Shown here: positions 39,648-43,422 of the stretch, one piece after another
Layout of the letters: every line of letters starts with the position of its first letter
How positions within the stretch are numbered: position 1 is the stretch's first letter
DNA from: Gemmatimonadota bacterium
Lineage (GTDB): Bacteria; Gemmatimonadota; Gemmatimonadetes; Longimicrobiales; Gaopeijiaceae
NCBI GenBank assembly: GCA_022823225.1
Contig: JAJDXM010000061.1
Coordinates: 1-53,256, forward strand
Reading direction: 5' to 3'
Length of the DNA stretch: 53,256 bases
Translations under genes and position numbers: made by a program
Notes under the pieces: model-generated
Database searches by the model: none
Told to the model about the DNA's origin: nothing
What the model saw: only the letters and a program-made list of their open reading frames with translations

Positions 39648-40844
39648 GTGACCCGGGCCCGGCGTGCCCTCTGGATCCCGCCGTTCCTTCTAGGCTCGGC
39701 GATTGCCACCGCCGTGGGCACCGGGGCGGGCATCCTCCTCTACAACGACGAGGGGCTCCTGCGGGCCGCTCTGGTCCTGGCGGGCGTCAACCTGGTCGCG
39801 ATGACCGTCGGGTTGCGGACAGCCGGAGTCCGGGAGGCCAGGCGGGATCCGCTCGCCGGAAAATGGTGGCTGGGTCTGATGGTGACGCTCCTTGGGGCCG
39901 CCGGTTTTGCGGTGGTTTGGGAGGGGATGGATGCGTTCGCCGCCGCGCCGGCCGCGCAGGGGCTGGGCCTTGCGCTGACCACGGCGCTTCCGGGGTACTG
40001 GGCCGCGGGCACCTGGGCGCGTCTCGGCGCGCTGGAGGCCCTGCTGCGCCGCGGCAGGAAACACCAGACCGGCCTGGGCGCCGCGGCGGGTGCGGCTGTG
40101 GGGGCTTTGCTGGTGATCGTCTTTCTGGGGCGTCCGGTCTGGGCGGTGACGGCTTTTCTGGCCGCGATGGTCCTGGGATCGGCGGGGGCCCGGCTTCACG
40201 TCTGGATTCTGGACAGGATGCCCCGTCTCCACCGGTCGCTGGAAGATCCTGACCGTCCCTGGCTCAGCTTCGAGGAATGGCGCACGGTTCTGCCCGAGCG
40301 ACGGACGCGGGCGCTGTTGGCCGGACGCCGCTGGCTGACGATCGATCCACCACCGCCGGGCGACTGGCGGGTGTGTGTGACCGGCACCCTGGACCCGGGC
40401 TGCCAGGTTCTCTTCGTTGGCATCGGCAGCTGGTTCGAACTGCCCCAGGACCTGGAATGGAGCATCTACGAGCCGGACGACGGCGTGCGGAAGCTCGCCG
40501 CAAAGGGCTTCGAGTGGGAGGAGCAGGCGCTTGTGGAGTCGCCCGTTGCGGAGGCTGTGGGCCGGGTGGTGCTCGCCGACCTCGGTGCGACGGTCGCAAT
40601 CCGTCCCGGGCTGCTCCGTGACGCGGGGGCGGAGCGGGTGTGGATCGGCGGACCGCCCAACGGCCTCCCCGAGTCGTTCAGGGAGGAGGCACGGGAAGCC
40701 GGGTTCGGGTTGGCCCGGTACCGGAGCGCGGTTCCCGGCGTGGAGGGTCCGCCCAACGTGGAGCCCAGGGCCGACGAGGTATGGTGTCTCGACGCCGGCG
40801 GGTCGCCGCCGGAATCGGTTCCGGGCATGGTGACGGTGCCGTGA
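39648..40844 (+). CDS. Membrane protein of unknown function
   Basis: A 398-residue protein. The N-terminal half has about six predicted helices (from ALWIPPFLLGSAIATAVGTG to about residue 185). The C-terminal half is soluble and lacks a known motif; it contains WFELPQDLEWSIYEPDDGVR and AERVWIGGPPNGLPESFREE. GTG 39648 is the likely start but has no ribosome site. An 18-codon frame, MRLDIRLDPLPLRHVTGP, runs from ATG 39596 and ends with TGA overlapping this GTG, so translation may be coupled to it. The gene in turn overlaps the SbcD-like gene by GTGA. The order rsgA - membrane protein - SbcD-like - SbcC-like suggests one operon. Confidence 0.6.
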   Translation: MTRARRALWIPPFLLGSAIATAVGTGAGILLYNDEGLLRAALVLAGVNLVAMTVGLRTAGVREARRDPLAGKWWLGLMVTLLGAAGFAVVWEGMDAFAAAPAAQGLGLALTTALPGYWAAGTWARLGALEALLRRGRKHQTGLGAAAGAAVGALLVIVFLGRPVWAVTAFLAAMVLGSAGARLHVWILDRMPRLHRSLEDPDRPWLSFEEWRTVLPERRTRALLAGRRWLTIDPPPPGDWRVCVTGTLDPGCQVLFVGIGSWFELPQDLEWSIYEPDDGVRKLAAKGFEWEEQALVESPVAEAVGRVVLADLGATVAIRPGLLRDAGAERVWIGGPPNGLPESFREEAREAGFGLARYRSAVPGVEGPPNVEPRADEVWCLDAGGSPPESVPGMVTVP

Positions 40845-41896
40845 CGGTGGCGCACCTGTCGGACCTGCACCTGGGCTACGGTGCCGGGACGGCAGGCCGT
40901 ACCAGCGACGCCGCAAGAGTCTTCGAGGAGGCACTGGCCCGGATTGCGGGCATCGGCCCCAGGCTGGTGGTGATCGCCGGGGACGTCTTCGACCATCCGG
41001 ACGTCACGGCGCCGCCGATCGCGACCTTTACGCGCGCGATCCACAAGCTCCGCGAACGTGTGCCCGATGTGGTCGTGGCGGTGGTGGCCGGTGTGCGCGA
41101 CACCCCCCTCGACCCGTCCCACCAGGGCCCGCTCGCCGTTGTCGGCGCGCTGCAGTCGGTCGAGGCGGCGACCGTCGCGTCGCGGCGGCTTGTCCTGCTC
41201 GACGGCGACCTGTCGGTCACGCTGGTGCCGCACCACGCAGCGCGGCGAGCGCCCCCCCCGAAGCTGGCGCCGGACCGCGCCGCGAAGTGGAACGTCCTGG
41301 TTCTGCACGGGGTACCGGCCACTGCGGGCCCGGGCGCCCGCGGATCGCAGCCGGGGCGCGCTCGACGCTCGGCGGCGCCGTCGCCACGCGCCGGAAGCGC
41401 GCTCCCGGTGCCGCTTACCGGCTGGGACTACGTCGCGCTCGGTTCCCGCCACACGCGTGCGCAGATCGCGGAGCGCGCTCATTATTGCGGTTCGCTCGAA
41501 CGAATCGGCCCCGATCCCTGGGAGGAGGCCGCCGTGGACAAGGGGTTCCTCACCGCGCATCTGGAGTCGGGCGAGGTGTCGTTCGAGCCGGTGGAGGCCC
41601 GCGCAGCTGTGAGCCTGGCGCCGGTGGACGCGACCGACGGGGGCACGGCGACGGCCGCTCGCCGCCTGGGCGAGGCGCTTGCCGGGGTGCCCGGCGGGAT
41701 CGATGGCAAGCTGCTGCGCGTGCCGGTGCGGGGTCTCGGCCCCGACGCCATGGCCGCGCTCGACCGGGAGGTGCTGGCGCGGGTCCGGCGCAGGGTCGCG
41801 GAACTCCGGATCGACGCGCTGCCCGGTCCGGCGCCGGCGGGGAAAGCGGCCGCGGCGAAGGGAGCGGCGGGCAGCCGCGCGGGCCGGTCGCCATGA
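40841..41896 (+). CDS. SbcD/Mre11-like metallophosphoesterase with degenerate active site
   Basis: A 351-residue protein with the calcineurin-like fold. The first two metal motifs are intact: LSDLHLG (Asp8, His10) and GDVFDHPD (Asp48). The third motif, GNHD in SbcD, is GVRD (Val85, Arg86), losing the metal-binding Asn and catalytic His. The last motif, GHxH, is GSRH (Ser202, His204), losing one His. LHGVP keeps His156. The C-terminal part has a capping region and an Ala/Gly-rich tail. Loss of these residues argues against Mre11-type nuclease activity. It starts at GTG 40841 (GTGA) and overlaps the SbcC-like gene by ATGA, the classic sbcD-sbcC order. Confidence 0.75.
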   Translation: MTVAHLSDLHLGYGAGTAGRTSDAARVFEEALARIAGIGPRLVVIAGDVFDHPDVTAPPIATFTRAIHKLRERVPDVVVAVVAGVRDTPLDPSHQGPLAVVGALQSVEAATVASRRLVLLDGDLSVTLVPHHAARRAPPPKLAPDRAAKWNVLVLHGVPATAGPGARGSQPGRARRSAAPSPRAGSALPVPLTGWDYVALGSRHTRAQIAERAHYCGSLERIGPDPWEEAAVDKGFLTAHLESGEVSFEPVEARAAVSLAPVDATDGGTATAARRLGEALAGVPGGIDGKLLRVPVRGLGPDAMAALDREVLARVRRRVAELRIDALPGPAPAGKAAAAKGAAGSRAGRSP

Positions 41897-43422
41897 AGCT
41901 GGAGCTGCTCTGCACCGCGACGCGGACCGCTGCGCTCGAGCTCTCGGACGCGCGCGGCCTGGTGGCCTTCGTGTCCGACCCTGATGCGCTGTGGCGCGAG
42001 TACATGGCCGCGATCCGTGCGGCGCTGGCGAGCCGGGGGAGGCTGCGGGGAAGGGGGTCGGTGGTGAGCGTGGGGGCGGAGGGGCGGGGCGGGCGTGGCA
42101 GACGCGGCGCCCCCGCGGTGGCGACGGTCGGCAGCGCCGACTTCGAGTCCCTCCTGGAGAAGATGCTCGCCGCGCACGCGCTGCGGCGTGAGGAGTTCGC
42201 CGCCGTGTGGCTCGGGACGGGGCGCGCCGAGACGTGGCTGTCGGCGGCGGTTGCGCTTCTGAACGGGCCGGAGACGACGCGCCGCGCCAGGGGGGACCTG
42301 GGGGCGGTGGGGGGTGGGGCGGGGGGTCGCCCCGACCACGCGCCGGCCCGCGACGAATCGGCGGCGGCATGGGTGCGGCGCCTGATCCGCGAGGCGACGA
42401 GCGATGTGCAGCGCCTTGCCCGGGCGCAGGTGGGGACTGCCGAACTCGAAGCCCGCGCGAAGGAATTGCGTGAGGCGGCCGCCGTGAAGCGGGGCGACGC
42501 GGAGGCCGCGGCGATGGCCTGGGTGCGCGAACGGCAGGATGCGGAGACCCGCCTGCTGCTCTATCGCGACCGCGAGCGGGAGTTGCGGGAGCGGCTGAAG
42601 CGAATCCGCGACGCCGGCCGGGACGCCGGGTGCGTGAACTGCGGCCGGCCGCTGGAAGATCGGCTCGACGCGGTGAGGGAGGCGCGCCGGGAGGAGTGGG
42701 AGGACGTGGTTCAGGACGGAAAGTGGTGGCGCCGGCGAAGGGACCAGCTCGAGCTCAAGCCCGATGAACTGAAGGAGATCGAAAGCCGGGCCCTGTCGCT
42801 CGGTGCCGAAATCGAGGATCTCTCGGAGGAGCTCGAACGCCGCAAGGTCCAGGCGCTCGAACTGGCCGCGGCCACCGACCGGCTGACACAGCTGCGGGAG
42901 CTGGAGGCCAGGATCGCTGAAGGGACGGGTCGAACACGGCAGACGGAAGATGCGAACCGTGACGAAGCTGTCCGACTGGTGGAAGCGGCGCGGGAACGGG
43001 TCCGCGCAAAGGTCCATGCGAAGTTGATCGCCCTGACCGGGGGCCGGTTTGCGGGAGCGTTTCCGGAACTCTATGCCGACTGGCTCGCCGGCAACCGCGG
43101 GAGCGGAGAGGACTCGGCGGTGCTGGAGACCGCGGCGCGCATCACCCTGGCCGAGATCGCCGTGGACGCGGGCGTTGCGCTGGGGTCCGTCGTCCTGCCC
43201 GCCGGGCTCGAGCGCCTGAACGGCGAGGACCTCCCCCGGACGCTGGCCGATCTGGCCCGCCTCGCGAGACGCATTCCCCTGGTGCTCGTGAAGGCGACCC
43301 CGCGTGTGGCGGCCGGGGCGCCCGAGAGCTTCGATCTTCTCTACAGCCTCGAAGACACGGGGAAGGGACAGCGTGTCAGACGCCGGCGTCCCGGCCCCGC
43401 GGCTCTATGGCTGCAGGGCTAG
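41893..43422 (+). CDS. SbcC/Rad50-like zinc-hook coiled-coil protein without P-loop
   Basis: A 509-residue protein organised like a short Rad50. Two coiled-coil arms (about residues 170-240 and 255-370) flank a CVNC zinc hook (Cys247, Cys250, followed by GRPL). The end resembles the C-terminal ATPase half (VHAKLIALTGGRF ... LARRIPLVLVKATP ... SFDLLYSLED). No Walker A exists at the N-terminus, where MKLELLCTATRTAALELSDA replaces it. The Walker B position reads SVVLPAGLERLN instead of LLLDEP-x-x-x-LD. The H-loop His is replaced (VLVKATP), and no LSGGE signature is seen. ATP hydrolysis is therefore unlikely. A Gly/Arg-rich stretch (GRGGRGRRG) lies near residue 65. It is coupled by ATGA to the SbcD-like gene. 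Confidence 0.72.
   Translation: MKLELLCTATRTAALELSDARGLVAFVSDPDALWREYMAAIRAALASRGRLRGRGSVVSVGAEGRGGRGRRGAPAVATVGSADFESLLEKMLAAHALRREEFAAVWLGTGRAETWLSAAVALLNGPETTRRARGDLGAVGGGAGGRPDHAPARDESAAAWVRRLIREATSDVQRLARAQVGTAELEARAKELREAAAVKRGDAEAAAMAWVRERQDAETRLLLYRDRERELRERLKRIRDAGRDAGCVNCGRPLEDRLDAVREARREEWEDVVQDGKWWRRRRDQLELKPDELKEIESRALSLGAEIEDLSEELERRKVQALELAAATDRLTQLRELEARIAEGTGRTRQTEDANRDEAVRLVEAARERVRAKVHAKLIALTGGRFAGAFPELYADWLAGNRGSGEDSAVLETAARITLAEIAVDAGVALGSVVLPAGLERLNGEDLPRTLADLARLARRIPLVLVKATPRVAAGAPESFDLLYSLEDTGKGQRVRRRRPGPAALWLQG

Follow-up and report, generated by a model that had tools for sequence, protein, structure and literature searches.

A hook-bearing protein pair of a Gemmatimonadota family descends from Mre11-Rad50 and appears to have lost catalysis

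This study analyzed a 53,256-nucleotide stretch of DNA (the window) from a Gemmatimonadota bacterium and revealed that two of its genes, D and C, descend from an Mre11-Rad50 pair of the archaeal type, which persists intact in sister families. In the GTDB family of the organism (f1; members deposited as Longimicrobiales), none of the ATPase motifs remains in C, whose coiled coil has lost the greater part of its length, and catalysis in the D-C pair appears, judging from sequence, to be lost. We consider it somewhat probable that D-C is a pseudoenzyme offspring of Mre11-Rad50, an ATP-independent, hook-dimerized scaffold or tether whose remodeled site is predicted for one metal; the tethering role is what we infer from the retained architecture and the lost motifs.

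The preliminary description of this locus had proposed overlapping genes in sbcD-sbcC order, and the open reading frames, their order, and their overlap were as claimed. D (positions 40841-41896, forward strand; 351 aa, GTG start) encodes an Mre11/SbcD-fold protein comprising a phosphoesterase and a capping domain, and C (41893-43422, forward strand; 509-511 aa) encodes a Rad50-fold protein. The two genes overlap by 4 bp, with the ATG start of C lying within an ATGA overlap; a possible alternative GTG start is located at 41887. The stop codon of a membrane-protein gene, M (39648-40844, forward strand; 398 aa), identified by the ORF call and by homologues upstream of D-C, overlaps the start of D (GTGA). 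Besides M, the genes around D-C were read as encoding RsgA, a large membrane protein, and an anthranilate-synthase-like protein.

Comparison of C with its intact relatives by hhalign yielded a probability of 99.9% (E 7e-38), and the top PDB match of the AlphaFold model of C (pLDDT 87.8) was the P. furiosus Rad50 head (Z 16.4, 262 residues). These results rule out an unrelated coiled-coil protein and indicate a Rad50 ABC-ATPase head fold, although SMC heads scored within 2 Z units. The zinc hook, a CxxC between two coiled-coil arms, was present as C247-V-N-C250 (42631-42642, forward strand), flanked in the model by predicted long helices at residues 182-244 and 255-287/291-343. All 85 aligned sequences carried CxxC (CPTC in 62), and the surrounding hook block (residues 201-290; 42493-42762, forward strand) was the best conserved stretch of C. 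On the N side, the arm from head to hook comprised approximately 63 residues, compared with approximately 230 in intact relatives. A Pfam T2SSF match of C (E 0.006) fell under its cut-off and was located on the coil.

Walker A, the signature, Walker B, and the H-loop were all missing from C. According to the secondary structure of the model, the P-loop-equivalent position reads VSDPDALW (residues 27-34; 41971-41994, forward strand), between a predicted strand (22-27) and helix (32-46), and the pattern G-x4-GK[ST] occurred neither there nor elsewhere in C. Alignment of C from f1 with that from the sister families f2 and f3 revealed VVLPAGLERLN in place of LLILDEVFGSLD at the Walker B/D-loop position (43189-43221, forward strand) and VKAT at the H-loop position. 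The Pfam AAA_23 profile returned no match to C even at E 1. Neither an overlooked Walker A nor a misplaced start explains this result, since no f1 C contained G-x4-GK[ST] even when full upstream-open frames were included; among the sequenced-out f1 loci, Walker A was found in 0 of 69. The hook between two coiled coils, the absent N-terminal Walker A, the replaced Walker B, and the lost H-loop His, all claimed in the preliminary description, were thereby confirmed.

The match of D to the SbcD profile TIGR00619 (E 2.5e-8, 34 bits) did not reach the curated cut-off of 77.65. The top PDB match of its AlphaFold model (pLDDT 83) was M. jannaschii Mre11 (Z 26.9, 285 residues, 3.5 A), and the lowest Mre11 entry (Z 21.8) ranked above the first non-Mre11 phosphoesterase (Z 19.2), indicating the Mre11 phosphoesterase fold with a capping domain. 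The complete nuclease motif set (DxH, GDxxD, GNHD, H, and GHxH) was not found in D, which reads GVRD and GSRH at two positions; the partner had indeed been described as lacking two metal/catalytic motifs. On the forward strand, motif I (D8-L-H10; 40862-40870) and motif II (G47-D48-V-F-D51; 40979-40993) are kept, with D and H of motif I and D48 of motif II each present in 88 of 89 f1 D proteins. Motif III has become G84-V85-R86-D87 (41090-41101), and this change is clade-wide, with R and D each in 88 of 89 (x-R-D in 88/89); N-H never occurred in the 89 f1 D proteins, compared with 15 of 16 f2/f3-type relatives. His156 of motif IV (41306-41308) is kept here and in 65 of the 89, the other 24 carrying Y, R, C, T, or Q. 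Motif V reads G201-S202-R203-H204 (41441-41452), with the first His lost and the second kept; across the 89 proteins, the first position is S in 44, G in 36, H in 8, and L in 1, and the second is H in 87. D thus retains Asp8, His10, Asp48, and His204, with metal sites 1 and 2 assigned by comparison with the P. furiosus Mre11 structure. No Rad50-binding C-terminal helix-loop-helix was predicted in the window D, whose chain ends behind the capping domain, with pLDDT under 50 for residues 338-351; the C-terminus of D is longer in other f1 genera. Because D in the window's genus lacks this helix-loop-helix, formation of a D-C complex cannot be taken for granted in that genus.

The sister families f2 and f3 carry an intact pair with GPNGAGKS, CPTC, and GNHD. 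These pairs and archaeal-type Mre11-Rad50 resemble the f1 cassette in both folds, the gene order, the CPTC/CxxC hook, the VQDGxWW block beside the hook, and, in f3, the divergent lipoprotein-like gene. In contrast to them, f1 C has lost Walker A, Walker B, the signature, and the H-loop, f1 D lacks N-H in motif III and, in most cases, the first of the two His in motif V, the arms have been cut to approximately one quarter, and D and C often form one fused protein. Bacterial SbcCD also shares the sbcD-sbcC order, both folds, and the hook, but the window pair is devoid of ATPase motifs and falls far short of the SbcD cut-off; the ancestor of D-C is nearer archaeal-type Mre11-Rad50 than E. coli SbcCD. 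The suggested link to the upstream membrane gene was likewise supported. In 56 of the 69 loci without Walker A, the gene immediately preceding D-C was an M homologue, and the intact f3 pair has the same divergent lipoprotein-like neighbor as f1 and a homologous membrane gene upstream (locus L164, 3934-5745), which matches NF037959 (fused MFS/spermidine synthase) at E 7e-30. Intermediate forms, for example in L084, matched both models. M is therefore an altered relative of the membrane spermidine-synthase-like gene upstream of the intact f3 pair.

The cassette was carried by 83 of 101 f1 genomes and was missing from 18, among them the entire sample of ten genomes from genus g12. D and C were fused in 36 of 73 loci, a state that changed at least 5 times on the tree; the D tree did not give good support (43/42) for the f1 form having arisen only once. 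The mean pairwise identity of the hook block was similar in f1 (0.61) and in intact relatives (0.60), whereas that of the C-lobe fell from 0.85 in intact relatives to 0.38 in f1. The pattern is thus inverted, the best conserved part of C being the hook in f1 and the ATPase in intact forms. The dN/dS ratio was 0.12-0.36 for D and 0.13-0.46 for C, and for each pair tested, dN in the hook fell below the average over C. The N-lobe and C-lobe of C are still under purifying selection, suggesting that the head has some duty left. Conservation across dozens of species together with purifying selection excludes chance and a pseudogene. An N-lobe search of 35 f1 genomes found no intact orthologue elsewhere in the family: the best matches (E 1e-10 or weaker) were other ATPases, whereas the intact N-lobe in f2/f3 genomes scored E 1e-29 to 1e-110. 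A distantly related intact Rad50-type pair in one genome (G085) was judged a non-orthologue, its Walker A and D sequences differing strongly, as was a similar D in another (G019), for the same reason of sequence difference.

Several other readings were weighed. D may be a retooled one-metal phosphoesterase with a new small or nucleic-acid substrate, in which Arg86 replaces metal 2 and the proton donor and C only dimerizes D. The site-1 ligands and R86-D87 are nearly invariant in f1, and the changed motif III looks selected rather than decayed because it is so strictly conserved; there are also Mre11 structures in which each active site holds a single Mn (4fbk). We nevertheless regard this reading as unlikely, given that the catalytic His, reported to be essential for nuclease activity in P. 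furiosus Mre11 (H85; PMC4996933), is gone, that f1 proteins vary at the motif IV His and at the first His of motif V, and that no known one-metal member with the signature of D was found. A function in the envelope, with M-D-C as a structural module linked to the membrane and having nothing to do with DNA repair, would fit the position of M directly upstream in f1 and of its homologue in f3, the nearby divergent lipoprotein-like gene in both families, and the GTGA overlap coupling M and D in the window. This function is rather improbable: the intact f2/f3 pair bears all DNA-repair hallmarks, M has no known contact with D or C, and the conserved order may reflect shared ancestry only.

The search for a normal sbcCD elsewhere in the genome, as proposed earlier, found a separate complete one on contig C88; D-C is thus not the only SbcCD of this genome. 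A third pair, YhaO/YhaN-like with AAA_27, sits separately on contig C16 and has no CxxC hook, and C itself had no AAA match, which argues against YhaO/YhaN as its identity. Zinc hooks by nature pair between subunits, and C could form mixed hooks with active SbcC or another hook protein, damping or redirecting it; SbcD above the TIGR00619 cut-off accompanied the cassette in all 23 genomes of the window's genus (g1). Such a regulator is nonetheless very unlikely, because 58 of the 62 cassette-bearing f1 genomes outside g1 have no SbcD above the cut-off, the third pair lacks a hook to pair with, and D-C fusion implies a self-contained unit. The earlier proposal that D-C is a structural or regulatory relative of SbcCD keeping architecture while losing catalysis is supported by the hhalign and Rad50 fold matches and by the absence of a Walker A from the 69 loci, although a dedicated SbcCD regulator is unlikely. 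Slow loss of decaying pseudogenes could account for the genomes without the cassette, including those of g12, but is extremely improbable in view of frames that stay open in many genera, dN/dS ratios far lower than 1, the invariant hook, repeated fusions, and 4-bp overlaps.

In the favored scaffold or tether reading, two C proteins would join through Zn2+ at the hook and hold two D modules approximately 10-20 nm apart without ATP, forming a constitutive scaffold or tether in place of an ATP-gated nuclease. D would no longer cut DNA by the Mre11 mechanism; it may bind one metal, with Arg86 occupying the place of the catalytic His, and may serve in phosphate or DNA binding. D may also, on its sequence, be a weak one-metal hydrolase. 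M would possibly place the complex near the membrane. The only tie of the cassette to DNA is its ancestry.

Partial parallels are available. Mimivirus R555 and bacterial or plasmid Mre11/Rad50 fusions carry an N-terminal Mre11 and a C-terminal Rad50 in one chain (PMC3175470), the same domain order as in the 36 related loci with a D-C fusion. The R555 fusion retains both Walker A and Walker B together with the majority of its nuclease residues. Two such fusions reportedly lack one P-loop segment (PMC3175470), but this was not described as a clade-wide loss combined with a conserved hook. The B-subunits of eukaryotic replicative DNA polymerases are inactivated PolD DP1 relatives that use an Mre11-like phosphoesterase domain as a scaffold (PMC4996933). 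They resemble D in keeping this domain once the catalytic motifs were lost, but have no Rad50 partner or zinc hook and belong to an unrelated complex. Lamassu LmuB gave a weak profile match to C over the coiled coil (E 3.8e-5) and a structural match; it was rejected since C has no Walker A, the match is confined to the coiled coil, and the neighbors are housekeeping genes, not LmuA/LmuC. The literature searched, whose coverage is incomplete, contained no report of an Mre11-Rad50 lineage devoid of catalysis.

It has long been asked, usually with the help of mutants, to what extent Mre11-Rad50 works by hook tethering and to what extent by ATP-driven cutting. In f1, both catalytic parts have seemingly been eliminated in the course of evolution, whereas the hook persists in more than 80 genomes, and intact sister families are available for comparison. 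We tentatively suggest, at somewhat less than even chance, that both activities were taken apart on one or a few occasions and that the rest was rebuilt family-wide as a distinct machine, an ATP-free, often fused zinc-hook dimer with a one-metal-plus-arginine pocket. The f1 cassettes would represent a natural separation of function, in which hook-only complexes are directly comparable with their intact relatives.

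The Mre11-fold protein gene D (40841-41896) and the Rad50-fold protein gene C (41893-43422) form a cassette on the same strand as the membrane protein gene M (39648-40844), and the three genes are joined by 4-bp overlaps (GTGA between M and D, ATGA between D and C). An RsgA gene lies upstream of M-D-C and a divergent large membrane protein gene downstream. The contig, C63, belongs to a draft genome of 4.19 Mb whose close relatives are Gemmatimonadota MAGs, several of them deposited with the label Longimicrobiales.

The SbcCD/Mre11-Rad50 kinship proposed in the preliminary description was borne out. 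D matched TIGR00619 (SbcD) with an E-value of 2.5e-8 and 34 bits, below the cut-off of 77.65, and sequence-only family searches yielded nothing useful for C. When a profile of 16 C proteins from f1, the window's own Gemmatimonadota family, was compared by hhalign with five intact relatives, a probability of 99.9% was obtained (E 7e-38, 333 columns), the alignment spanning the hook, the coils, and the C-lobe. AlphaFold models of good quality, which inform on fold and not on activity, were obtained for C (pLDDT 87.8) and D (pLDDT 83.4). The best structural match of C was Pyrococcus furiosus Rad50 (Z 16.4, 262 residues), followed by SMC heads (14-15), and D matched Mre11 (Z 26.9, 285 residues, 3.5 Å), with every Mre11 row outranking the first other phosphoesterase (Z 19.2). 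These results show that the pair is homologous to Mre11-Rad50 and shares its folds. The Rad50-binding helix-loop-helix was not predicted in the window D because the protein stops after the capping domain.

No Walker A was found in C, which reads VSDPDALW where strand 22-27 gives way to helix 32-46. Alignment with f2 and f3, sister families carrying the intact pair, revealed that ISGGEED is replaced by SGEDSAV, LLILDEVFGSLD by VVLPAGLERLN at the Walker B position, and ITHI by LVKAT, the H-loop His being absent. The missing Walker A, the altered Walker B position, and the missing H-loop His had been noted previously, as had the loss of two D motifs. Motif III (GNHD in intact relatives) reads x-R-D in 88/89 f1 D sequences and N-H in none of the 89, and the first His of motif V (GHxH) is S or G in 80/89 and still His in eight. 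D8, H10, and D48 are each retained in 88/89, the last motif V His in 87/89, and the single His of motif IV in 65/89. With P. furiosus Mre11 as the reference, we take the retained ligands to be the metal 1 set and the lost Asn and His to belong to the metal 2 set. H85 of P. furiosus Mre11 is reported to be the essential proton donor (PMC4996933), and a role in nuclease activity is reported for His173/206/208 (PMC3175470). The zinc hook was retained as claimed (CxxC in 85/85 sequences). As judged from these alignments, f1 shows a loss of catalytic motifs with retention of the hook.

Hook-block identity is 0.61 in f1 versus 0.60 in intact forms, and C-lobe identity falls from 0.85 in the intact form to 0.38 in f1. 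The order of conservation has thus flipped, the ATPase being most conserved in the intact form and the hook in f1. Selection on D and C was shown by dN/dS values of 0.12-0.36 and 0.13-0.46, respectively, obtained by the simple counting of Nei-Gojobori on GC-rich, partly overlapping genes; hook-block dN was below the C-wide average in every pair tested. Purifying selection persists on the C head lobes, and these lobes must therefore have some duty. The N-side arm of C comprises approximately 63 residues versus approximately 230 in intact relatives; with 0.148 nm taken per residue, this corresponds to approximately 9 versus 34 nm.

Two peptide patterns retrieved 73 loci from 84,980 species genomes, nearly all labeled Gemmatimonadota; Walker A was absent in 69 and present in four. 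D and C are fused in 36/73 loci, with at least five state changes in a tree sample. Among 101 f1 whole genomes of at least 85% completeness, in a sample consisting mostly of MAGs, 82 gave a match to the D profile with an E-value no weaker than 1e-69; adding G024, in which C lies at a contig edge, the cassette is present in 83/101. The intact N-lobe was detected in f2/f3 genomes (E 1e-29 to 1e-110). None of the f1 genomes searched yielded it, and their best matches (E 1e-10 or weaker) were other ATPases. The sister C proteins (811-815 aa) carry GPNGAGKS or GPNGSGKS and CPTC, are paired with a GNHD-type D, and in NCBIfam are nearest to archaeal Rad50 (E 1.5e-55), then SbcC (3e-27). A D tree computed with motif columns masked placed all Walker-A-less rows on one side of one branch with weak support (43/42), which does not settle the number of catalytic losses; the clade of intact pairs was well supported. 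One f3 locus (L043, G054:C53) has GDRD for GNHD, P for the last motif V His, and a C with Walker A, and is apparently a separate partial loss; G054 also has a second, intact pair (L170).

The suggested link to the upstream membrane gene held, an M homologue lying immediately 5' of D in 56/69 f1 loci and also upstream of the f3 D, in a form recognizable as membrane spermidine-synthase-like. In f3 and in the majority of the remaining f1 genera, D-C has a divergent lipoprotein-like gene in its vicinity. Because these neighbors are common to f1 and f3, the f1 pair is best read as an inherited locus rather than an import. M is an altered relative of the f3 protein (L164:3934-5745), which matches NF037959 (E 7e-30); no family match was found for the window form. 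M thus seems to be a second enzyme-like protein of the cassette with its hallmarks lost.

A normal SbcCD elsewhere in the genome had been raised as a check, and a complete one is present on C88. A YhaO/YhaN-like pair without a hook lies on C16 (L160:1294-5498), with intact motifs, no CxxC, and a hydrophobic segment in the long coiled-coil protein. SbcD above the cut-off was found in 23/23 genomes of the window's genus, g1; outside g1, it was missing in 58/62 cassette carriers and present in 11/16 cassette-less genomes, counts that are clumped by genus and hence not independent. Because most carriers outside g1 lack such an SbcD, this gene distribution speaks against D-C as a dedicated regulator of SbcCD. 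In g12, another f1 genus, the cassette is absent and SbcD above the cut-off present in 10/10 genomes, a clean swap at the genus level.

Additional MR-like genes, different in type, occurred sporadically: L168 (G085:C160) and L170 (G054:C23) are complete pairs (Walker A GSNESGKS and GQNGSGKS, with CPTC), and in L169 (G019:C26) a D that looks intact lies at the end of a contig. An f2 HerA-type-ATPase-like protein (L162:4459-6573, G041:C559), with no NCBIfam match, lies upstream of an intact pair; archaeal clusters combine HerA, Mre11, and Rad50. On C89 of the window genome, an AAA protein (L002) with a partial DndD match (E 2.6e-14) adjoins a helicase-like gene, a possible defense or DNA-modification locus.

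DNA polymerase B-subunits are inactivated Mre11-like phosphoesterases, and their use as scaffolds is documented (PMC4996933). The fused loci share their single-chain arrangement with Mre11-Rad50 fusions already known; for two of these, the absence of one P-loop segment has been reported (PMC3175470). The literature searched contained no case of both activities being lost throughout a clade while the hook was strictly retained. We propose, as the most likely mode of action, that C dimers would form through Zn and keep D modules at a set spacing without requiring ATP, D binding phosphate or DNA in place of cutting. The cassette could, on the gene distribution, stand in for some non-catalytic SbcCD task. 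D-C descends from Mre11-Rad50 and should not carry the SbcCD annotation, because it fails the defining catalytic features.
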